Assembly (NCBI GenBank): GCA_028874315.1
Contig: JAPPKM010000024.1
Location: 1 to 54,338, forward strand
DNA from: Chloroflexota bacterium
GTDB taxonomy: Bacteria > Chloroflexota > UBA11872
Length of the DNA: 54,338 nt
Direction of reading: 5' to 3'
The notes under the pieces were generated by a model. That model did no database searches and was not told the origin of the DNA. It was given only the letters and a program-made list of their open reading frames with translations. The first letter of the stretch is position 1; every line of letters starts with the position of its first letter. Position numbers and translations under genes: made by a program. Below, in pieces: positions 1 through 49,072 of this stretch.

Positions 1-914
1 ACGTTCTTGGCGACCCAGCGGGCGGCGTAGTTGGCGGAGCGGTCGACCTTGGTGGGGTCCTTGCCGGAGAAGGCGCCGCCGCCGTGGCGGGCCATGCCGC
101 CGTAGGTGTCCACGATGATCTTGCGGCCGGTCAGCCCGGCGTCGCCCATGGGACCGCCGATGACGAAGCGGCCGGTGCCGTTGACGATGAAGCGGGTGTC
201 GTCGTCGATCCACTCCGACGGGACGATTTCGCGGATGACGTTCTCGACCAGTTCGCGCTCGATGGTGTCGCTGTCGATGTCGTCGGCGTGCTGGGCGGCC
301 AGCGCGACCGTGTCCACGCGGGCCGGTTGACCGTAGCGGTACTCAACGGTGACCTGGGACTTGCCGTCGGGCCGTAGCCAGGGAAGCGTGCCGTCCTTGC
401 GGACGGCGGCGAGCTGGCGGGCAGCGCGGTGGGCCAGGGCGATGGGCGCCGGCATGAGTTCCGGCGTCTCGTCGCAGGCGTAGCCGTACATCATTCCCTG
501 GTCGCCGGCGCCCAGGCCTTCGACCTCGGCGTAGTCGCCATGCAGGTCGCGGACTTCGAGCGCTTCGTCAACACCCATCTTGATGTCGGCCGACTGTTCC
601 TTGACGGAGACGGCGACGCCGCAGGTCTCGGCGTCGAAACCGTGATCCGAGTGGGTGTAGCCGATTTCGCTGACGGTGCGGCGCACGACCTTGGGGATGT
701 CCACGCTGTCGCCGCCGGCGGTGATCTCGCCGAACACGAGCACCAGGCCGGTGGAGGCCGCCGTCTCGCAGGCCACGCGGGCCTTGGGGTCGGCCTGGAG
801 GTAGGCGTCCAGAATCGCGTCCGAGACCTGGTCGCAGAGCTTGTCGGGGTGGCCCTCGGTTACGGACTCGGAGGTGAACAGCAGGCGGGCGGCCTGCGCG
901 AAGGTGCTACTCAA
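1..914 (-). CDS. metK: S-adenosylmethionine synthetase (partial, C-terminus outside window)
   Basis: Makes S-adenosylmethionine from methionine and ATP in the cytoplasm. The N-terminal 304 or so residues of a protein that is usually about 390-400 residues are present; the gene runs off the left edge. Near the start [13 protein letters not shown] carries the family's ATP-binding His. [12 protein letters not shown] is the MetK signature 1, and near the edge [15 protein letters not shown] is signature 2, the phosphate loop. The start is TTG at 914, chosen because the protein then begins directly at the conserved N-terminus and GGGAG lies 6-7 bases upstream; the nearby ATG at 927 is in another frame. 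It is the last gene of the mtnA-mtnP-pfkB-ahcY-metK operon, 52 bases after ahcY. No SAM riboswitch is visible in that gap. Identification is secure. Confidence 0.96.
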
Positions 915-966
915 TGTGCTCTCCCATGCTGTCGCCGAGTGTGGGTGCCGTGCGACCGCGGCCTGA

Positions 967-3188
<2,222 letters not shown>

Positions 3189-3198
3189 GTGCGGCGAT

Positions 3199-4077
3199 CT
3201 AGTCCGAGGCGGGACAGTTGAGGTACTTGCCCACGAGCAAGTCGTGGCGCTCGGCGAGTTCGGGCGGAATCGCGTCCGGCGCGGTGATGATGGCGGTGGC
3301 CAGGGCGTCGGCGCACTCACAGGCGGAGTCGTCGGTTGGCATCTGCCCGACCGCGCGGCGGACGACGCGCTGGGAGAGCGAGGTGTTGGCCATGAGATTG
3401 GCGATGACCATCTCGGCCGAGACGTCGTCTTCGCTTTCGTGCCAGACGTCATAGTCCGTGACCATGGCGAGGAGGGCGTAGCAGATCTCGGCCTCGCGGG
3501 CGAGGCGGGCTTCGGGGAGCGCGGTCATGCCGATGACGTCGACGCCCCAGGAGCGAAACGTCTCGGACTCGGCGCGGGTGGAGAACTGCGGGCCTTCGAT
3601 GCAGACGTAGGCGCCGCCGCGATGCACGTGCGCGCCCTCCACCTCGGCGGCCTCGGCGAGCACACCGGACAGCCGGGCGGAGAAGGGCTCGCCCATGCCG
3701 ACGTGGACGACCAGACCCGGGGTGTCGAAGAAGGTCATGGGGCGCTGGCGAGTGCGGTCGATCAGCTGGTCGGGCACGACAACGTGGAGGGGCTCGATGT
3801 GTTCACGCATGCTGCCGACGGCGCTGACCGAGATGACCCAGCGCACGCCGAGCGACTTGAGCGCCCAGAAGTTGGCGCGGGCATTGACGGCGGTGGGCAT
3901 GATGCGGTGGCCGCGGCCATGGCGCGGGAGGAATGCCACCTCCACGCCGTCCAGCCTGCCGATGCGAATGAAGTCGCTGGGGTCGCCGAACGGCGTTGTG
4001 ACGGTCTCGTCGCGAATGTCTTCCAGGCCGGGCATGTCGTAGAAGCCGCTGCCGCCAATGACTCCAATTGCAGGCAT
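3199..4077 (-). CDS. mtnP: S-methyl-5'-thioadenosine phosphorylase
   Basis: Phosphorolyses 5'-methylthioadenosine to adenine and 5-methylthioribose 1-phosphate. The 292-residue protein has the trimeric nucleoside phosphorylase layout: phosphate-binding GVIGGSGFY (5-13), PRHGRGH (51-57), the family signature EGPQFSTRAES (161-171), GMTALPEA (183-190) and the base-recognition TDYDVW (207-212), whose two aspartates match the adenine-selecting pair of human MTAP. It is therefore an MTAP rather than a guanosine phosphorylase. The ATG start has GGAG ten bases upstream. It sits 18 bases after mtnA and 10 bases before the PfkB kinase. Together with MtnA it starts the methionine salvage pathway without an MTR kinase. 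Confidence 0.95.
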   Translation of the reverse strand: MPAIGVIGGSGFYDMPGLEDIRDETVTTPFGDPSDFIRIGRLDGVEVAFLPRHGRGHRIMPTAVNARANFWALKSLGVRWVISVSAVGSMREHIEPLHVVVPDQLIDRTRQRPMTFFDTPGLVVHVGMGEPFSARLSGVLAEAAEVEGAHVHRGGAYVCIEGPQFSTRAESETFRSWGVDVIGMTALPEARLAREAEICYALLAMVTDYDVWHESEDDVSAEMVIANLMANTSLSQRVVRRAVGQMPTDDSACECADALATAIITAPDAIPPELAERHDLLVGKYLNCPASD

Positions 4078-4095
4078 TAGTCGTGGCTCCGCATG

Positions 4096-5187
4096 TCAGG
4101 CGGCCGCGTCAGGGGCCGCCGCGAACCGGCGTAACGATTCCAGGTAGGGCGGCCGGTGGACGCCGTGCTCGGTGATGATCGCGGTTACGCGTTCGTGCGG
4201 GGTGACGTCAAAAGCCGGATTGGCGACGGGCGCATCGGAGGGCGACCAGCGCCAGTCGCCGTAGCCGTGGACTTCCTCGGTGGCCCGTTCCTCGATGGGG
4301 ATGGCGTCGCCGTTGGGTGTGTTGAAGTCGATCGTTGACAGCGGGGCGGCCACGTAGAACGGCAGGTCGTGGGCGCCGGCGGCGACGGCATGGCTGTAGG
4401 TGCCGATTTTGTTGGCGACGTCGCCGTTGGCGGCAATGCGGTCGGCGCCGACGATGACGGCGTCGATGTGCCCTCGACGCATGCGGTCGGCGGCCATGCT
4501 GTCGGTGATGAGGGTGAAGGGCACGCCCCACTGCGCAAGTTCCCAGGTGGTGAGGCGACCGCCCTGGAGCAGGGGTCGGGTCTCGCTGACAACGACCTGG
4601 ATGCCATGGCGCTGGTTGGCGGCCTGGAGCACACCGAGGGCGGTGCCGTAGCTGGCGGCAGTGGCGAGCGGACCGGTGTTGCAGTGGTGGAGCACGCGCT
4701 GGCCGGATGCGAAGAGGTCGGCCCCGGCTTCGGCAAGAGCGCGGTGGCGCTGCTCGTTGTCGGCGGCGATCTCGTGAGCCAGCGCCAGCAAGCCGTGTTG
4801 GATTGCTTCCCGAGGGTCCCGAATATCGTCGGTCGGCCGGTGATCCGCGAGCGCGCCGAGCTCATGGGCCGCCGCACGCATGCGCTCGGCGGCCCAGGCG
4901 AGGTTTACGGCCGTGGGTCGGGTGGCGATGACCTGGTCGATGACTTTGTCCAGGCGTTCCAGGTAGGTCGTCTCATCGGGCGCGTCGACCCGCGTGGCGG
5001 CCAGGGCAACGGCGTAAGCGGAGGCGACGCCGAGGGCGGGGGCGCCGCGGATGGCAAGGGTGCGGATGGCTTCGTTGACCTGCGAAACCTCGGTGCAGTG
5101 CAGCACCTCGACGGCATCCGGCAGGCGACGCTGATCCAGGATGCGAACCGCGCCGTCACACCATTCGATAACCGGCGGGACAGCCAT
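4096..5187 (-). CDS. mtnA: S-methyl-5-thioribose-1-phosphate isomerase
   Basis: Converts methylthioribose 1-phosphate, the MtnP product, to methylthioribulose 1-phosphate. The 363-residue protein has the eIF2B-like fold markers of MtnA: IRTLAIRGAPALG (41-53), the catalytic cysteine loop HHCNTGPLAT (167-176, Cys169), SETRPLLQGGRLT (201-213), and VGADRIAANGD (247-257) with catalytic Asp249 followed by NKIGTYSHAV. These residues separate MtnA from ribose 1,5-bisphosphate isomerase and true eIF2B subunits. The ATG follows AGGTGAG. It is the first gene of the operon; a TATACT -10-like box lies about 30 bases upstream. The later salvage genes (dehydratase, enolase-phosphatase, dioxygenase or an aldolase shunt) are not in the window. 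Confidence 0.95.
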   Translation of the reverse strand: MAVPPVIEWCDGAVRILDQRRLPDAVEVLHCTEVSQVNEAIRTLAIRGAPALGVASAYAVALAATRVDAPDETTYLERLDKVIDQVIATRPTAVNLAWAAERMRAAAHELGALADHRPTDDIRDPREAIQHGLLALAHEIAADNEQRHRALAEAGADLFASGQRVLHHCNTGPLATAASYGTALGVLQAANQRHGIQVVVSETRPLLQGGRLTTWELAQWGVPFTLITDSMAADRMRRGHIDAVIVGADRIAANGDVANKIGTYSHAVAAGAHDLPFYVAAPLSTIDFNTPNGDAIPIEERATEEVHGYGDWRWSPSDAPVANPAFDVTPHERVTAIITEHGVHRPPYLESLRRFAAAPDAAA

Positions 5188-42546: not shown

Positions 42547-43503
42547 CTAGGGCTGGCTCGGCCAAGAGTCATCCCAGACGGCAACAACGCGACCGTCAGG
42601 GCGTCGGAGTTCGGCGGGGTCGGGGCTGCTGTTGTTCCAGACGTTGCGCTGCTGAAAGCGATGGGAACCGGTGGCTCCTCCCGAGACGACGCGGAGCGTT
42701 GCCCTGGGGGCAAGGGTGGTCGTGGCTGGGAAGCGGTAGCTCTGTTTGCCGCGCAGGCTGACAAGCCACCAGCCGGAAACGTCCAGCGGCGCCGATCCGG
42801 CGTTGGTCAGCGTCGCAACCTCCCGCACCTTGTCCACGGTTATCGAAACAGCGGCGGTGTCCAGCGCCCAGATGCCGACATCAGCGGCACGAGCCTCGGC
42901 GACGGCGCGCTGGATGGCCTCCCGCTGAGACAGGTTCGGGGGTATCGGAAGCGCCCGTGCCCAGCCCTGGCGGGCCAGGTCCGCGGCCAACAGGCGATCC
43001 GCCCGGTACACGTGGCGAAGCAGGCGGCCGCCGGCGTCCGATGGCTCAACGTCGGCGACCAGGCGCAATGGGCCGTTCCCTATGAGGACTCGCAGGGCAT
43101 CGCTCGCCTGCTCGGCGAGCTTGCGCTGGCCGACGTCATCGAACTCAGGCGCATCAATCCCAAGGACTCGAACCGTGACCTCGCCCGACGGAACCGTGAC
43201 CGTAAAAGTGTCGCCGTCGACGACTGCCAGCAGCCGACCGGAAACGCCGTCCGCATCCACCCTGACTGACGGCGCGGGAGAGGGAGTTGGCGTGGGCGTT
43301 GGCGTAGGTATCGACGTTGCCGAGGGAGTTCCTGTGGCAGCGGGCCTCGCCGGCTCGTCCGCTGGTGGGCGCCGACCGGCATCGGGCGTGCGCCCTGCAG
43401 CAGTGGGCCGAGTTTCGGTGGCTGTGGTAGCCCGCGCGGTGAGGCGCAGCACGACGGATTCGTCGGGCGTTCCGTCGCACGCCGTCAGCACGGCAGCCGC
43501 CAA
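42547..43503 (-). CDS. Lipoprotein thermonuclease with lamin-tail-like domain
   Basis: Predicted exported nuclease of at least 318 residues. VLTACDG is a lipobox. A Pro/Thr repeat linker (PTPTPTPTPSPAP, about 66-78) precedes a staphylococcal nuclease-like domain (about 85-210) with VVDGDTFTV, VRVLGIDAPEF, LVADVEPSDAGGRLLRHVY and GWARAL. The active-site Arg in VRVLG and Asp residues are present. The C-terminal part (about 215-318), with ATLTNAGSAPLDVSGWWLVS and RRPDGRVVAVWDDSW, is a lamin-tail domain. TTG 43503 is the only normal start but makes the signal too short; in-frame codons upstream to about 43551 encode RSLAPIARGLLAGAL, a full signal peptide without an ATG, GTG or TTG. Confidence 0.82.
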   Translation of the reverse strand: MAAAVLTACDGTPDESVVLRLTARATTATETRPTAAGRTPDAGRRPPADEPARPAATGTPSATSIPTPTPTPTPSPAPSVRVDADGVSGRLLAVVDGDTFTVTVPSGEVTVRVLGIDAPEFDDVGQRKLAEQASDALRVLIGNGPLRLVADVEPSDAGGRLLRHVYRADRLLAADLARQGWARALPIPPNLSQREAIQRAVAEARAADVGIWALDTAAVSITVDKVREVATLTNAGSAPLDVSGWWLVSLRGKQSYRFPATTTLAPRATLRVVSGGATGSHRFQQRNVWNNSSPDPAELRRPDGRVVAVWDDSWPSQP

Positions 43504-43882
43504 CGCCCCGGCCAGTAGGCCCCGTGCGATTGGCGCAAGGCTCCGCGTGCGGCATCAAGTGGTGCTGGTGGACCAACGACTACTGTACTGTGGAATTCTG
43601 GGTCCGTCGGCCAAATGCAGGTCTGCCGCGACAAGACCATGACGGCGGCCGAGCAAGACTTGGCCGCGCCGAACGAGCGTGAGTTCTTGTTGTGGGCCTC
43701 AAGCTCCGCCGAGCTAGCAGACGCCACCGGAACTACAGCGCGCCTCGTCAATTTCGGTAGCCGGTAGCGGACGAAAAAGGAAGCGTGACGGACCCGTCGG
43801 AGTGCCGTGCTGTCGCAGTCCAAATAGTTTGATATGGGAAGATGATGCATGGCGGCGTGAGCCAATCTGGAGATCCAACGTC
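43504..43882. other. Spacer upstream of the methyltransferase/flavoprotein cassette
   Basis: A 379-base spacer between the nuclease lipoprotein and the methyltransferase gene. It holds the missing N-terminal signal-peptide codons of the nuclease (minus strand, to about 43551), one 50-codon plus-strand ORF at 43615-43767, and a short AT-rich patch at 43823-43838 (AAATAGTTTGATATGG) that may hold the promoter of the next genes. No confident -10/-35 pair is seen. Confidence 0.5.
43615..43767 (+). CDS. Possible 50-residue ORF
   Basis: An open frame of 50 codons that starts MQVCRDKTMTAAEQDL and ends ARLVNFGSR, with GC-rich third positions as in real genes here. There is no ribosome binding site, no recognised family and no partner. 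It may be a small gene, the remains of a longer one, or a chance frame in GC-rich DNA. I give it low weight. Confidence 0.22.
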   Translation: MQVCRDKTMTAAEQDLAAPNEREFLLWASSSAELADATGTTARLVNFGSR

Positions 43883-44944
43883 ATGGCCAACTATCAGAAG
43901 CTGAAGAGCCGCATTGATCAGGGTGAAGTGCTCGTCCTTGACGGGGCCATCGGAACCGAGCTTCAGGCCATGGGCGTGCCGATGCACCCGGCCTCGTGGT
44001 GCGGCCCCGGCAGCTACACGCACCCGGCAACTGTGCGGCAAATGCACGAGCGTTACATAAGGGCAGGGGCGGACATCGTCACCACCAACACCTTCAACAC
44101 GTTGCGCCCCGCGCTGGAGGCTTCCGGGTACAGCGAACTGGTACGGGAAGTCAACGTGCGCGCCGTGGACTCGGCGCTGGACGCCATAGCCCGCGCCGCC
44201 GTCGACAGGCCGATCAGCGTCGCCGGCTCCATCTCCTGCCGAACCCCCATCCGCGACCGCAGAACCGGGACGCTGCTCGGCGGCACCGGCTACGGCTATG
44301 GGGCCAGCCTATCGGCGCCGGAGCTGAGAACGTACGCCGAGGAGCAGGCCAATATCCTGGCAGAGTCCGGTGTGGACTTTTTTCTGATCGAGAATCTGTG
44401 GGCCGACAACGAGTCTCGGGCGATTGCCGCCGAAGCAGCGAAGGCCACCGGACTACCGGTCTGGGTGGCGTTCACGGCCTCCATGGCGGCTGACGGGCAG
44501 GCGGTCAGGATGAGTTTCGGTGACGAGCGTCACTACAGCGGCGGCCTGGGGATGCCGCTGTGGGAGGAAAGTTGGCGGCCGGTCGACAACAACAAGAGCC
44601 TGGCCGACGGCGTCAACGAGATTGCATCAGTGGGCCCCGATGTCCTCGGGGTGTTCCACAGCCGGATCGACGAGACGACGGCGGCGCTCCAGGTCGTGCT
44701 GGACGAGTGGTCCGGACCCGTCGTCGTCTATCCCGATGCTGGCAGAGAAGATTATCTTGCGACCTGGCAGGACAGCACCGTGAGCAACGAAGAGTCCGTG
44801 GAGGAGTTGACGCGGGAGGCCGCCGCCTGGGTCGACATGGGAGCCCAGGTCATCGGCACCTGCTGTGGATTCGGGCACGACTACACCAGGGCTCTGCGAG
44901 GCGCTCTGCCGGCCAGGACCTCATCCCCGCGAAAGGTCGCCTAG
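43883..44944 (+). CDS. Homocysteine S-methyltransferase family protein with altered zinc site
   Basis: TIM-barrel protein of 353 residues of the betaine/S-methylmethionine homocysteine methyltransferase family (Pfam S-methyl_trans). VLDGAIGTELQAMG (18-31), TTNTFNTLRPAL and CR-TPIRDRR match. The family binds zinc with three cysteines, one in a GVNC motif and a GGCC pair. Here the pair is Cys327-Cys328 (IGTCCGFG), but the first position reads GVFHS (256-260), so His259 stands in for Cys. Zinc could still bind. ATG 43883 has GGAG ten bases upstream; the frame extends to 43802 without support. It lies 61 bases before the flavoprotein alpha-like gene, on one transcript. Possibly it takes a methyl group from a methylated substrate whose remainder the flavoproteins oxidise. 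Confidence 0.85.
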   Translation: MANYQKLKSRIDQGEVLVLDGAIGTELQAMGVPMHPASWCGPGSYTHPATVRQMHERYIRAGADIVTTNTFNTLRPALEASGYSELVREVNVRAVDSALDAIARAAVDRPISVAGSISCRTPIRDRRTGTLLGGTGYGYGASLSAPELRTYAEEQANILAESGVDFFLIENLWADNESRAIAAEAAKATGLPVWVAFTASMAADGQAVRMSFGDERHYSGGLGMPLWEESWRPVDNNKSLADGVNEIASVGPDVLGVFHSRIDETTAALQVVLDEWSGPVVVYPDAGREDYLATWQDSTVSNEESVEELTREAAAWVDMGAQVIGTCCGFGHDYTRALRGALPARTSSPRKVA

Positions 44945-45005
44945 GCCGCACATGTCCATCGAAATGGGACGTAGAACTGGTCGAGCGTGAGCAGAGGGAT
45001 CTGAC

Positions 45006-46538
45006 ATGGAGTCCAGACCGCTGGTCGTGGTCGGCGCGGGGGTGTCGGGGACGGCCGCCGCCATAGAGGCGGCCAGGGCCGGCGTGCAGGTCACGCTTAT
45101 CGACGAAAACCCCATACCAGCCTCTATGGCCGGGCTGAACGTTCCGCAGATCTTCGGCCAGCGGTTCGCGTATACGCTCAAGAGCAAGGCTCTAATGCTG
45201 GAGCGAGTAACCGCGGACAACGAGGCCCTGGCGGTCGCTGAAGCTGCCGGCGTGGACATTCAGCTTGGGACCTGCGTTTGGGGCGCCTTTCGCAATTCCG
45301 AATTCAGCAGAGTTCTTGACGGCCCTCAACTCGGGCTGGCCGACGACGAGCGGTCGTGGCTGATCAAGTATGACCGGCTCATCGTGGCCGCCGGCGCCCG
45401 GGATCTGGGCCTCGCCTTCGCCGGGTGGAATCTGGCGGGCGCCATGGGAGCCAATGCCGCCGACTTGCTCATGAATCGATACGAGGCATCATCCTCGCGG
45501 TGCATGGTGGTCATGGGCACCGGCAACCTGGGCCTCAACGCCGCCAGGATGGCGCTCGACAAGGGTATCGAAGTACCTGCCATCGTGGACGTGTCCTCCG
45601 CCGTGCGCGGCGACGAGGCTCTGCGTTCGGAGTTGCATAACGCGGGCGTACAGTTCTACACATCCCACACGGTTCGGGAGACGGTCGGCAACGACGGCAA
45701 CATGGAGTCCGTCGTGCTGGTCGAGATCGACGACAGCGGCAAGCCGGTTGCCGGCAGCGACAAGGTCATCGCCGCCGACACCGTCTGCCTCGCTGTCGGC
45801 CTGGTGCCCAACGTCGAGCTACTCAGCCTCCTGGGGTGCGACCTCAAGTTCGAGTCCGAGCTTGGTGGATACGTGCCGGACCGAGACGAATGGATGCGGA
45901 CCAGCGTCGACACCGTGTTCGTGGCGGGTGATGCCGCCGGCTACCACGACGGAATGGTCCTCGACAGCGAGATTGCACGAAACCAGGGGCGCCTGGCCGG
46001 AATCGCCGCTGCCGAGTCGCTCGGCGCCCTTGACGGCAAGCGGGCGCTGGACCGGAAAGCCGACCTGCAGGCAGATGCCGTCGACACCGTACCGAACGAG
46101 GTGCACTCGGATTGGACGCGTTGGCTTCAGTCCCTCGCGAAGGCCGGCGGACCCGACATCTTCGTGTGCCCGTGCGAGGAAGTAACGTGCGCCGAGCTGT
46201 TAGACCTAAGGCCGCCGCGGTTTCTGGGATGGGACTCGGAACGAGACAGCCGACGGAGTCTCAGGGCGCTCGCGAAGGGCTCTCCGGCAGACCCGGACCA
46301 GGTCAAGCGCCTCACGAGGGCCGGCATGGGTCACTGCCAGGGCCGGCTCTGCCGAGAGCAGGTGTCGATGCTGCTTGCCCACGAGTCCGGTCACGATGTA
46401 GCTGAGGTGCCCTTCATGTCGTATCGCCCCCCTGTGCGACCGCTTCCACTGAAGGTCCTTTGGGCCCACGAAGAGACGGAGCAGATGCGCAGGGACTGGC
46501 CCAAGTGGTTTAGCCCAACGAGTCCGGTGCTTGGATAG
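45006..46538 (+). CDS. FAD/[2Fe-2S] oxidoreductase, opine oxidase/HcnB/PDH alpha-subunit-like
   Basis: A 510-residue flavoprotein of the pyridine-nucleotide-disulphide oxidoreductase type. VVVGAGVSGTAAAIEAA (7-23) is the FAD-binding motif; a second dinucleotide site is around VVMGTGNLGLNAAR (168-181); VFVAGDAAG (304-312) is the FAD end motif. The C-terminal cluster domain has Cys388 and Cys390 (FVCPCEEVTC) and Cys444 and Cys449 (GHCQGRLCR), the C-x-C...C-x4-C set for a [2Fe-2S] cluster. This matches the alpha subunits of opine oxidase, hydrogen cyanide synthase (HcnB) and the archaeal dye-linked proline dehydrogenase. The beta-like partner follows after 35 bases. The small 2Fe-2S HcnA-type subunit is not seen nearby. 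Confidence 0.87.
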   Translation: MESRPLVVVGAGVSGTAAAIEAARAGVQVTLIDENPIPASMAGLNVPQIFGQRFAYTLKSKALMLERVTADNEALAVAEAAGVDIQLGTCVWGAFRNSEFSRVLDGPQLGLADDERSWLIKYDRLIVAAGARDLGLAFAGWNLAGAMGANAADLLMNRYEASSSRCMVVMGTGNLGLNAARMALDKGIEVPAIVDVSSAVRGDEALRSELHNAGVQFYTSHTVRETVGNDGNMESVVLVEIDDSGKPVAGSDKVIAADTVCLAVGLVPNVELLSLLGCDLKFESELGGYVPDRDEWMRTSVDTVFVAGDAAGYHDGMVLDSEIARNQGRLAGIAAAESLGALDGKRALDRKADLQADAVDTVPNEVHSDWTRWLQSLAKAGGPDIFVCPCEEVTCAELLDLRPPRFLGWDSERDSRRSLRALAKGSPADPDQVKRLTRAGMGHCQGRLCREQVSMLLAHESGHDVAEVPFMSYRPPVRPLPLKVLWAHEETEQMRRDWPKWFSPTSPVLG

Positions 46539-46573
46539 GCCGGCGGCACTGGCCGGATGCCTGGAGTGACGTA

Positions 46574-47740
46574 GTGCCCATGGACAGCGCAGACGTGGTC
46601 GTCATTGGCGGTGGCGTTTCCGGTTTGACGTCAGCCTATTTCCTGGCAAAGGCCGGCCGAGACGTCGTTGTCGTTGAGAAGGGCATCGTCGGGGGCGAGG
46701 CCTCGGGGCGGAACGGCGGGATGGTCAGCGAGCGCGTCGACGAACCGGCGCTGATACCGATGGCCGTGGAAGCCATCAAGATCTGGGCCACTCTGGATGC
46801 CGAGCTGGGCTATCCCACCGAGTTCACACAGAAGGGCAGACTCCAGGTCGCCGTTACCGAAGAGGAGATGGACGATCTCTACTCGGAGCGGGACGTAGCG
46901 TTGCGTCACGGCCTGAGCGCGGCAATGGTGGACCCGTCGGAGATTCTGGACATGCTTCCCGGAATCACCGGGAGGACGCTCGGCGGGCTGTTTTTTGCCA
47001 ATGGCGGCCACGCCAACTCCCAGCTGACGGTCCAGGCATTAGCGTGGGCGTTTCAAGACCTGGGCGGCAGGCTGTATCAGAACACGGCCGTCACCGGCCT
47101 CCGGGTCGTCGACGATAGAGTCACGTCGGTGGTGACGACCGGCGGCGCCATCGCCGCCGACATGGTGGTTGGCGCCGCCGGGCCCCAGACGGCGCTGTTG
47201 GCGCAACTGGTCGGCGTGCACGTTCCCGTGGCGCCGGCAAGGGTCGAGATCCTGGCGACCGCTCCCATAGAGCGGGCTTTCGACATCGCCCTTGTGGGGA
47301 ATGGACTCTATGGACGGCAGGCCGCCAGCGGCAATCTGCTCTTTGGTGGAGGCGCCCACGAATGGACCGACGTGGTCCTGACCGACGACCCCGGCAAGCC
47401 CAACACGCCCCTCATTCGGAACATTGCCCGGCGGCTCGCCGAACTGCTTCCCGGAGTGGCGGACGTTCCGGTAATCCGAAGTTGGGGCGGTGTGGTGGAG
47501 CAGGCCCCCGACTACATGCCAATCATCGACATCCTGGAATGCCCGAGCAACTACGTGGTCGTGACGGCATCCGCGCATGGGTTTGGCATTGCGCCAGCCA
47601 CCGGCAAGGCCGTCAGCGACCTCGTGCTCTACGGCGAAACGGACATTGACATCAGCGCCCTGCGGCTCAGTCGTTTCGCCGGCTACGGTCCCGACTGGCG
47701 GGAGCAGCGCGGCTGGACGCCGGCTCCACTGCGGTACTGA
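46574..47740 (+). CDS. FAD-dependent amino acid/amine oxidase, HcnC/SoxB-like beta subunit
   Basis: A 388-residue D-amino-acid-oxidase fold protein that takes hydride from an amine or amino acid. DVVVIGGGVSGLTSAYFLAKAG (7-28, split here) is the FAD Rossmann motif and VEKGIVGGEASGRNGGM carries the DAO-family signature. GAAGPQT, SWGGVVEQAPDYMP and ASAHGFGIAPATGKAV complete the FAD and substrate fold. It pairs with the alpha-like gene before it. GTG 46574 and ATG 46580 are both possible; both have GGAG in front. The known beta subunits form a heterodimer or hetero-octamer with the alpha partner. Likely substrates are N-methylated or N-substituted amino acids, opines, glycine or proline; which one cannot be told. 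Confidence 0.87.
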   Translation: MPMDSADVVVIGGGVSGLTSAYFLAKAGRDVVVVEKGIVGGEASGRNGGMVSERVDEPALIPMAVEAIKIWATLDAELGYPTEFTQKGRLQVAVTEEEMDDLYSERDVALRHGLSAAMVDPSEILDMLPGITGRTLGGLFFANGGHANSQLTVQALAWAFQDLGGRLYQNTAVTGLRVVDDRVTSVVTTGGAIAADMVVGAAGPQTALLAQLVGVHVPVAPARVEILATAPIERAFDIALVGNGLYGRQAASGNLLFGGGAHEWTDVVLTDDPGKPNTPLIRNIARRLAELLPGVADVPVIRSWGGVVEQAPDYMPIIDILECPSNYVVVTASAHGFGIAPATGKAVSDLVLYGETDIDISALRLSRFAGYGPDWREQRGWTPAPLRY

Positions 47741-47786
47741 CCTGGGCGCGGTCCAGTACGAGGCACGACGCGACGACGGACAACGG

Positions 47787-47860
47787 TGGGCGCGAGGGGA
47801 CTCGAACCTCTGACCTCCACGATGTCAACGTGGCGCTCTAACCAGCTGAGCTACGCGCCC
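47787..47860 (-). tRNA. tRNA-Val (anticodon GAC)
   Basis: The minus strand folds as a full cloverleaf: acceptor GGGCGCG/CGCGCCC, D arm GCTC/GAGC, anticodon stem CCACG/CGTGG with loop TTGACAT (anticodon GAC, valine), a 5-base variable loop and T arm AGAGG-TTCGAGT-CCCCT with one A-C mismatch. The discriminator is A and CCA is not encoded (the next bases are CCG). Confidence 0.95.
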
Positions 47861-48028: not shown

Positions 48029-49072
48029 ATGGCCCAGGCGCCGGTTGTTTACAGCGCCAAGGATCTCCGCCGTCGGCTGGACGCCCTGCCTCGGTTTCAT
48101 CTCACCGATCTGCCGACTCCGCTGCTTGAGCTGCCCAATCTCACCCGGCAACTGGGCGGACCGCGGCTGCTGATGAAGCGAGACGACCTGACCCAGGGCG
48201 GTCTAGGTGGCAACAAGAACCGGAAATTTCAATTCGAAGTGGGCGAGGCCCTTGCGCAGGACTGCGATGTGCTGCTCTGGGGCGGCGGGGTGATGCAGTC
48301 CAACCACGCCCGTCAATGCGCCGCCGCCGCTCGACGCGCCGGCATGGACGTGGTGCTGGTGCTCAACGAGGGGCCGCATGGCAAAGAACTCCAGGGCAAT
48401 CGGCTGCTGCTGGACCTCCTGGGCGCCGACGTGCGACCCACCGGTCGCGATGGGATGTTCGGCCACGAGGCCGACCTGGCCGCGACCGCGAACGAATTGT
48501 GGACGGCGGGTCGCCGACCCTACGTGATCGACTACGGGCCCCTGACCTCCATCGGGTACGTCGAGTGTGTGTTGGAGATCCATGAACAGTCACACGCAAT
48601 GGGCGCCGATGTCACGCACCTGTACGTGGCCTCGGGCGGCGGCACGCAGGCCGGGCTTGAGCTGGGAAACCGTGCACTGGGCGCAGGCTATGCCATTCGC
48701 GGCTTCAGTCCGCTGATCGTGGAGGGTGGCCGAACGGCCCAGCAGGCCGAGATGGCCAACGCCACAGCCGAACGCCTCGGGCTGAATGTGAGCGTCCGGT
48801 CGGAGGACATCTGCAACTCCCAGGCCTTCGTTGGCCCCGCCTACGCCGAGGCTACGCCGGAGGGCGTGGAAGCCATCCGCCTGGTAGCCGAGACCGAGGG
48901 CATCTTTCTGGAACCGGTCTACACGGGTAAAGCGTTTGCCGCCCTGCTGGACGACATCCGCAGTGGCCACCTCACGGCGCAGGATACGGTGGTGTTTCTA
49001 CATACCGGTGGGACGCCGCTAATCTTTGCGTACGCTGACGAGCTCGGTGAATCGGCGCGGCTGAACGGGTAG
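48029..49072 (+). CDS. PLP-dependent D-cysteine desulfhydrase/ACC deaminase family protein
   Basis: A 347-residue fold-type II PLP enzyme. The Schiff-base Lys is Lys63 in LGGNKNRKF; SNHARQCAAAARRAG (about 91-105) and ASGGGTQAGLELG are the PLP-phosphate and substrate loops. It belongs to the group of D-cysteine desulfhydrase (DcyD), L-cysteate sulfo-lyase (CuyA) and ACC deaminase. The sequence alone does not separate these. Products could be pyruvate, ammonia and sulfide or sulfite. ATG 48029 has GAGAGG about ten bases upstream; the longer frame to 47954 is not needed. It follows the tRNA-Val gene on the other strand and is upstream of the small lipoprotein. Confidence 0.85.
   Translation: MAQAPVVYSAKDLRRRLDALPRFHLTDLPTPLLELPNLTRQLGGPRLLMKRDDLTQGGLGGNKNRKFQFEVGEALAQDCDVLLWGGGVMQSNHARQCAAAARRAGMDVVLVLNEGPHGKELQGNRLLLDLLGADVRPTGRDGMFGHEADLAATANELWTAGRRPYVIDYGPLTSIGYVECVLEIHEQSHAMGADVTHLYVASGGGTQAGLELGNRALGAGYAIRGFSPLIVEGGRTAQQAEMANATAERLGLNVSVRSEDICNSQAFVGPAYAEATPEGVEAIRLVAETEGIFLEPVYTGKAFAALLDDIRSGHLTAQDTVVFLHTGGTPLIFAYADELGESARLNG

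Follow-up and report, generated by a model that had tools for sequence, protein, structure and literature searches.

A conserved gene trio of Chloroflexota joining a histidine-type methyltransferase homologue to two flavoproteins, possibly for the breakdown of a betaine-type amine

The window analysed here comprises the 54,338 nucleotides (positions 1 to 54,338, forward strand) of contig JAPPKM010000024.1, assembly GCA_028874315.1, from a Chloroflexota bacterium of the UBA11872 lineage. Between positions 43883 and 47740 it holds three consecutive genes, encoding a homocysteine S-methyltransferase-family protein (MT) and two flavoproteins (alpha and beta), referred to below as the trio or cassette. 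The trio is a real unit, since its order is constant in 20 genomes, which is beyond chance. Its function is proposed tentatively, at a little under an even chance: the trio may break down a quaternary, betaine-type amine, by methyl transfer followed by oxidation of the remainder. The individual parts are relatives of known enzymes, and the three would probably make up one small pathway. The functional statements made here are drawn only from relatives and gene neighbours.

Four hundred evenly drawn Chloroflexota genomes were profiled for MT and alpha orthologues (beta was read in 20 genomes only). Orthologues of MT (E ≤1.6e-123) and of alpha (E ≤2.7e-233) co-occur in the identical 23 genomes, and the next-best matches beyond these carriers lie at 7.2e-79 for MT (genome G361) and 1.7e-72 for alpha (G015). 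The carriers are 11 of the 13 genomes of the window's genus (its own genome included), all six from another genus in its family, and all six of a genus from another family of the same class. Record names point to sponge metagenomes as the probable source of this Chloroflexota group (bin names RHO, COS and IRC; sponge species as given in the accessible part of PMC8163846). MT and alpha are adjacent by coordinates in 22 of the 23 (in G280 by the MT end only), and the sole carrier without demonstrated adjacency, G033, has both genes at contig ends. A scan of named genome contigs for MT relatives, with the best 80 of 163 retained, gave among these 80 a set of 13 close relatives (best-segment identity 81-96%), all from Chloroflexota; the trio is present in 11 of them and interrupted by contig ends in the other two (L011 and L014). 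The order is MT-alpha-beta in all 20 genomes in which the complete trio is visible, namely the window, those 11 close relatives and eight further genomes. The initial annotation had made the cassette depend on the homologues being commonly adjacent elsewhere, and they proved to be neighbours wherever they were found. The genes that flank the trio differ among the three genera. Pairwise distances of MT, alpha and beta correlate (r 0.83-0.86, 190 pairs), as is seen among related genomes anyway.

Two loci show variation of the trio itself. Compared with L003:10001-13851, the MT of the window is 96% identical, alpha 71% and beta 79%, with flanking genes at 85-99%; the alpha/beta alleles look as if exchanged, or else fast-changing, inside the cassette. 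A second MT-alpha-beta set is present on a short contig of one genome (L204, G165:C61:1-3671) that has its main copy on contig C31; it is either a true duplicate or a strain mixture.

Protein families were assigned with Pfam and NCBIfam, applying curated or gathering cut-offs; all the NCBIfam models shown for MT, alpha and beta score below their cut-offs. MT matches PF02574 (E 1.7e-44, 153.2 bits against a gathering score of 22), and its 353 residues contain neither a cobalamin nor a pterin module. The predicted structure of MT is good (predicted local distance difference test, pLDDT, 81.8; predicted template modelling score, pTM, 0.87; low at residues 133-141 and 214-231), and a fold search with this model returned MetH, MmuM and BHMT as the best solved relatives. 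The three-Cys ligand set of PF02574 is altered in MT: the first position is occupied by His259, while the other two are kept. As the initial annotation had read from the single sequence, the His is in place of one zinc Cys, and by alignment it is found in 26 of 26 distinct genomes of its clade (the 23 carriers plus L015, G361 and L016), whereas the same column is Cys in all 37 other MT relatives compared. C327-C328 is retained wherever readable. Two further positions distinguish the clade: Cys40, present in 25 of 25 readable clade genomes and in none of the 37 other relatives, and Trp39 (25 of 25, against 4 of 37). In a 50-row MT tree all 12 His rows cluster together with support of 100/95, L016 and L150 being long branches; MT belongs to this His clade and does not group with the plain homocysteine methyltransferases compared, a placement among which would have counted against the cassette.

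In alignment with rat BHMT, His259 falls at what we take to be Cys217. Residues Asp26 and Glu159, presumably acting on the thiol side, are kept in MT as D20 and E170, and of the aromatic residues that we assume to line the betaine pocket (Trp44, Tyr77 and Tyr160) the first is kept as Trp39. His259 and the vicinal Cys pair would make a putative His-Cys-Cys zinc site. The His does not by itself imply an inactive enzyme, because MetE and MT2-A use His together with two Cys: the text available for PMC539065 gives His, Cys, Glu and Cys as the zinc ligands of both MetE and MT2-A and describes variation of the ligands from one thiol methylase to another.

Outside the cassette, two more His-type MTs are known here, one from a Desulfobulbaceae genome (L016) and one from G361 (L150). 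The former, L016:8055-9032, lies within a few kb of genes that by eye look like MetF, MetV and HdrA types. In the phylum of L016, two of 148 genomes passed the search, one being the L016 genome and the other, G787, having Cys at the zinc column. No member of the His clade was found in 349 Pseudomonadota genomes at E 1e-30, an empty result that had no positive control and carries little weight.

Alpha matches Pyr_redox_2 (E 2.2e-29) and SO_alpha_A3 (E 1.6e-8), and beta matches DAO (E 1e-72). The [2Fe-2S] motif that had been noted in alpha is confirmed, with cluster cysteines C388, C390, C444 and C449, and so is the DAO nature of beta. Alpha has no GcvT part and no N-terminal gamma-like domain, its flavin adenine dinucleotide (FAD) motif starting at residue 10. 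The cassette proteins match the middle of SoxA (alpha) and SoxB (beta) of the heterotetrameric sarcosine oxidase SoxBDAG, but they are far under both cut-offs (130 against 1164 for soxA, 153 against 529 for soxB), and the cassette holds no gamma or delta gene and no GcvT part of such an enzyme. Scores against the models named for sarcosine oxidase, for glycine oxidase and for D-amino acid dehydrogenase likewise all fall far below cut-off.

The initial annotation had likened the pair to opine oxidase and HcnBC, which raises the alternative that alpha/beta oxidizes an opine, proline, a D-amino acid or glycine, with MT incidental. The likeness holds for the motifs: four cluster Cys in alpha and Arg-X-Trp in beta are shared with OdhABC, D-hydroxyproline dehydrogenase, HcnABC and archaeal L-proline dehydrogenase, as these are described in the part of PMC4575208 consulted. 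It fails for the gamma subunit, or gamma-like N-terminal part, which those enzymes have. As had been noted from the window, no small HcnA-like subunit is encoded between or beside the trio genes, and no Fer2_4 protein of gamma-subunit size was found in 25 genomes (smallest frame, 207 residues); the window's own genome has three Fer2_4 matches, none of them on the contig of the trio, in reading frames 1083, 814 and 287 residues long. Hydrogen cyanide synthesis was rejected as a function of the cassette, there being no HcnA. The spacer between the second and third cluster Cys is also 20 residues longer in the cassette alpha than in most other alphas compared. It measures 52-54 residues in nine of nine cassette alphas, in seven of seven of the Rieske-linked group described below (G416 included) and in both Rhizobium proteins, against 32-36 in five other alphas; one row, L135, gave no match. 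With the named models this far below cut-off, and the nearest alpha/beta relatives mostly adjoining genes for betaine demethylation, we consider an opine- or proline-type oxidation very improbable.

The relatives meant here are the closest ones inspected outside Chloroflexota. Plasmid searches matched beta in 1364 records and alpha in 494, from the top rows of which six regions were inspected; with G416, G551 and G705, all the genomes passing E 1e-60 among 348 Pseudomonadota, they make nine relative loci. A GbcA-like Rieske oxygenase lies near alpha/beta in six of the nine, all Alphaproteobacterial (Paracoccus denitrificans PD1222 plasmid 1, P. yeei, Ancylobacter, Novosphingobium, G551 and G705). 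Sarcosine oxidase genes are found in four (P. yeei, G416, G551 and G705), the SoxB of G416 and G705 being above cut-off and SoxA above it in G416 and below it in G705. A glycine-betaine-type ATP-binding cassette transporter is annotated in three of the six plasmid regions. The Rieske-linked pairs resemble the cassette in gene order and in the long cluster spacer, with alpha 35-40% and beta 43-45% identical in the Paracoccus, Ancylobacter and Novosphingobium rows. In a 25-row beta tree the cassette and the Rieske-linked group (including G416) join with support of 87/80, and true SoxB falls elsewhere. The annotation of the six plasmid regions, whose tables are incomplete, shows no gamma gene next to alpha/beta; because of this, the missing HcnA-like subunit looks like a mark of the alpha/beta clade. 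The difference lies in the first gene: these clusters have a presumed Rieske demethylase where the cassette has a methyltransferase, and none of the nine loci contains a match at E 1e-10 to MT or to the ordinary homocysteine methyltransferase of the window's genome. In Novosphingobium (L179:7586-8842), G551 and G705 (L190/L191), a pyridoxal phosphate (PLP) enzyme of the cystathionine gamma-synthase family is encoded between the Rieske gene and alpha/beta.

The genomes of 31 relatives (20 cassette carriers and 11 non-carriers) were searched for other demethylation genes. SoxD is present in 19 of the 20 carriers as against four of the 11 non-carriers, and the window's own genome encodes SoxB, SoxD and SoxA consecutively elsewhere, with SoxB and SoxA above cut-off. 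No GbcA above cut-off was found in the 31 relatives, with weak matches (86-143 bits) in three carriers and two others. MttB was found in one carrier, as a contig-end piece of the window's own assembly, and in one of the non-carriers. This trimethylamine methyltransferase-family fragment (G000:C182:3-611; L201, L203) was not detected at E 1e-20 in the 12 remaining genomes of the genus that were searched, and it could be a binning error.

On the proposed pathway, MT would first remove one N-methyl group of the quaternary amine and pass it to a thiol; with homocysteine, the most likely acceptor, the products would be methionine and a tertiary amine. The alpha/beta complex would then oxidize the tertiary amine at the FAD of beta, passing electrons via flavin mononucleotide (FMN) to alpha and yielding a secondary amine and an aldehyde, which would be formaldehyde if an N-methyl group leaves. 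The last methyl group would fall to the genome's heterotetrameric sarcosine oxidase, whose genes lie away from the trio. MT would thus stand in place of the Alphaproteobacterial Rieske demethylase, both delivering a tertiary amine to alpha/beta. With homocysteine or another thiol as the final methyl acceptor, the first step would be oxygen-free and its carbon saved. GbcAB, the glycine betaine monooxygenase, would perform the same first demethylation but requires oxygen, and the cassette holds no Rieske oxygenase or reductase gene. In a more specific version, a zinc enzyme with a His-Cys-Cys site, and perhaps with Cys40 as fourth ligand or transient methyl acceptor, would transfer the methyl group directly and without oxygen, a gamma-less alpha/beta dehydrogenase would be coupled to it, and the substrate would be some betaine but not glycine betaine; taken as a whole, this version is rather doubtful.

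Glycine betaine itself might be the substrate, as a special case of the pathway: MT would act as a BHMT to give dimethylglycine, alpha/beta as a dimethylglycine dehydrogenase, and sarcosine oxidase would complete the route to glycine. BHMT coupled to dimethylglycine and sarcosine oxidation likewise joins the methyl-transfer family to an amine-oxidizing flavoprotein, with a sarcosine oxidase in the genome. The transporters and the GbcA- and GbcB-like genes near the relatives' pairs fit this, as does the SoxD mark in nearly all carriers. In a marine study, a stand-alone Bmt of Phaeobacter, distinct from the human type of enzyme, used betaine and dimethylsulfoniopropionate as methyl donors in vitro, according to the available text of PMC12366255. 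The cassette differs from the BHMT route in its His for one zinc Cys, its changed pocket residues and its two-subunit oxidizer, and the NCBI model for betaine--homocysteine S-methyltransferase gives MT 93.3 against a cut-off of 338. With the relatives' Rieske partners also falling below the GbcA cut-off, glycine betaine is an unlikely substrate on present evidence.

A different role for MT is suggested by a second marine study, on Ruegeria, where a corrinoid system, MtgBCDE, demethylates glycine betaine and saves the methyl group for methionine synthesis, its PF02574 protein MtgE being the homocysteine module (PMC12478193, in the part available). By analogy, MT could be a thiol-side module only, methylated by a split cobalamin methionine synthase or another donor protein and co-transcribed with the flavoproteins without feeding them. 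In the window's own genome the methionine synthase is indeed split, its homocysteine, pterin and cobalamin modules each having a gene of their own, the arrangement that MtgE serves in Ruegeria. But that split synthase already has a homocysteine module, which keeps the usual three Cys; its genes are on other contigs than the trio, and MT accompanies alpha/beta in almost every carrier. The module role is accordingly quite unlikely, and the neighbours of MT favour its using a betaine directly. Unlike MtgBCDE, the cassette has no corrinoid protein or MttB. With the split synthase present, MT as the sole methionine synthase was also rejected.

Several observations weigh against the breakdown of a betaine-type amine by the trio. 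BHMT residues Tyr77 and Tyr160 are replaced in MT by Asn72 and Asn171; a BHMT-like betaine cage is therefore not evident, and, as that pocket is kept only in part, glycine betaine is uncertain as substrate. The predicted structure of beta reached a pLDDT of only 45, so that of the structure predictions the MT model is usable and the beta model is not usable for its pocket. No alpha or beta match lies near the His-clade MTs of L016 and G361 in the stretches examined. All three carrier genera belong to one class, for which reason the carriers are not independent events. The Rieske gene is not near the pair in three of the nine relative loci (two Rhizobium plasmids and G416). The Rieske proteins tested are below the GbcA cut-off of 670 (528 bits for P. 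denitrificans, 440 for Novosphingobium), which leaves the substrate unsettled even for the Rieske-linked pairs, and the P. denitrificans reductase scores 237 bits against 500 for GbcB. Finally, as the Ruegeria case illustrates, a stand-alone PF02574 protein can be a mere homocysteine module of a split synthase (PMC12478193, same part). Methyl transfer followed by oxidation, as first suggested by the initial annotation, is partly supported: it has gained from the Rieske and sarcosine oxidase neighbours of the closest pairs inspected, which give it a clearer partner system than that annotation had, and lost from the two changed pocket aromatics. The annotation had allowed for an N- or S-methylated substrate; the neighbours support the N-methyl form, and nothing specific to an S-methyl compound was found.

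The layout first described for the locus, with all three genes on one strand and gaps of 61 bases between MT and alpha and 35 between alpha and beta, is confirmed (Table 1). The start of MT is backed by a GGAGA-ATG arrangement that is kept in all ten upstream stretches aligned. A consensus promoter scan detected none, and no riboswitch was matched, the one Rfam hit in the window being the tRNA. A segment at about 43822-43850, around TTTGATATGGGA, is conserved 5′ of MT across several related loci, and a promoter -10 site may be present there.

Table 1. Features of the trio and its 3′ boundary, in window coordinates
Feature	Coordinates	Strand	Description
MT	43883-44944	+	ATG start at 43883, 353 aa; homocysteine S-methyltransferase-family barrel
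Codons of Trp39 and Cys40 in MT	43997-44002	+	From alignment of His-clade MTs
Codon of His259 in MT	44657-44659	+	Column of the first zinc Cys
Codons of Cys327-Cys328 in MT	44861-44866	+	Vicinal zinc Cys pair
Alpha flavoprotein	45006-46538	+	510 aa; sarcosine-oxidase-alpha-like, FAD/NAD fold and C-terminal cluster domain
Alpha cluster motif C388-x-C390-x53-C444-x4-C449	46167-46352	+	From alignment of alphas
Beta flavoprotein	46574-47740	+	GTG start, 388 aa; DAO family, presumed catalytic subunit
Codons of Arg302-Ser-Trp304 in beta	47477-47485	+	Fits Arg-X-Trp, putative FMN site (PMC4575208, part available)
tRNA-Val(gac)	47785-47860	-	Closes the trio on its 3′ side; outside the unit

Upstream of MT, a gene that by eye looks nuclease-like (42547-43503, minus strand) points away from the trio. 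Downstream, 44 bases separate the stop of beta from the tRNA. The PLP-enzyme gene beyond it (48029-49072) might have been a fourth member but was excluded, because the minus-strand tRNA intervenes and the gene is away from the trio in L010, L012, L013 and L015. Its product is nearest to the D-cysteate sulfo-lyase CuyA (282 bits, cut-off 450) and the coenzyme M enzyme XcbE (239, cut-off 450), under both cut-offs. In genus g7, where the families of flanking genes were read in L145 only, the upstream genes (a weak isochorismatase-family match, a polysaccharide deacetylase and an S-adenosylmethionine-dependent methyltransferase) and a downstream TdeIII-type restriction enzyme were likewise set aside, the other two genera being without them. 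At the start of the window (3-5187), genes that by eye encode S-adenosylmethionine synthetase, adenosylhomocysteinase, methylthioadenosine phosphorylase and methylthioribose-phosphate isomerase are grouped.

Judged by titles, and with subscription papers mostly outside the coverage, no description of an MT-alpha-beta trio was found in the literature, which agrees with the initial annotation's remark that no such exact set was known to it.

Betaines are large marine stores of nitrogen and methyl groups. If the proposed function is correct, the trio would add a route of betaine breakdown to Rieske oxygenation, BHMT and corrinoid transfer, and would give this group of Chloroflexota an extra betaine route in which the first methyl group is kept on a thiol rather than burned with oxygen. 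Two unrelated demethylating enzymes would then serve one kind of flavoprotein pair, and a first function would be assigned to the His clade within a much-studied family of zinc methyltransferases.

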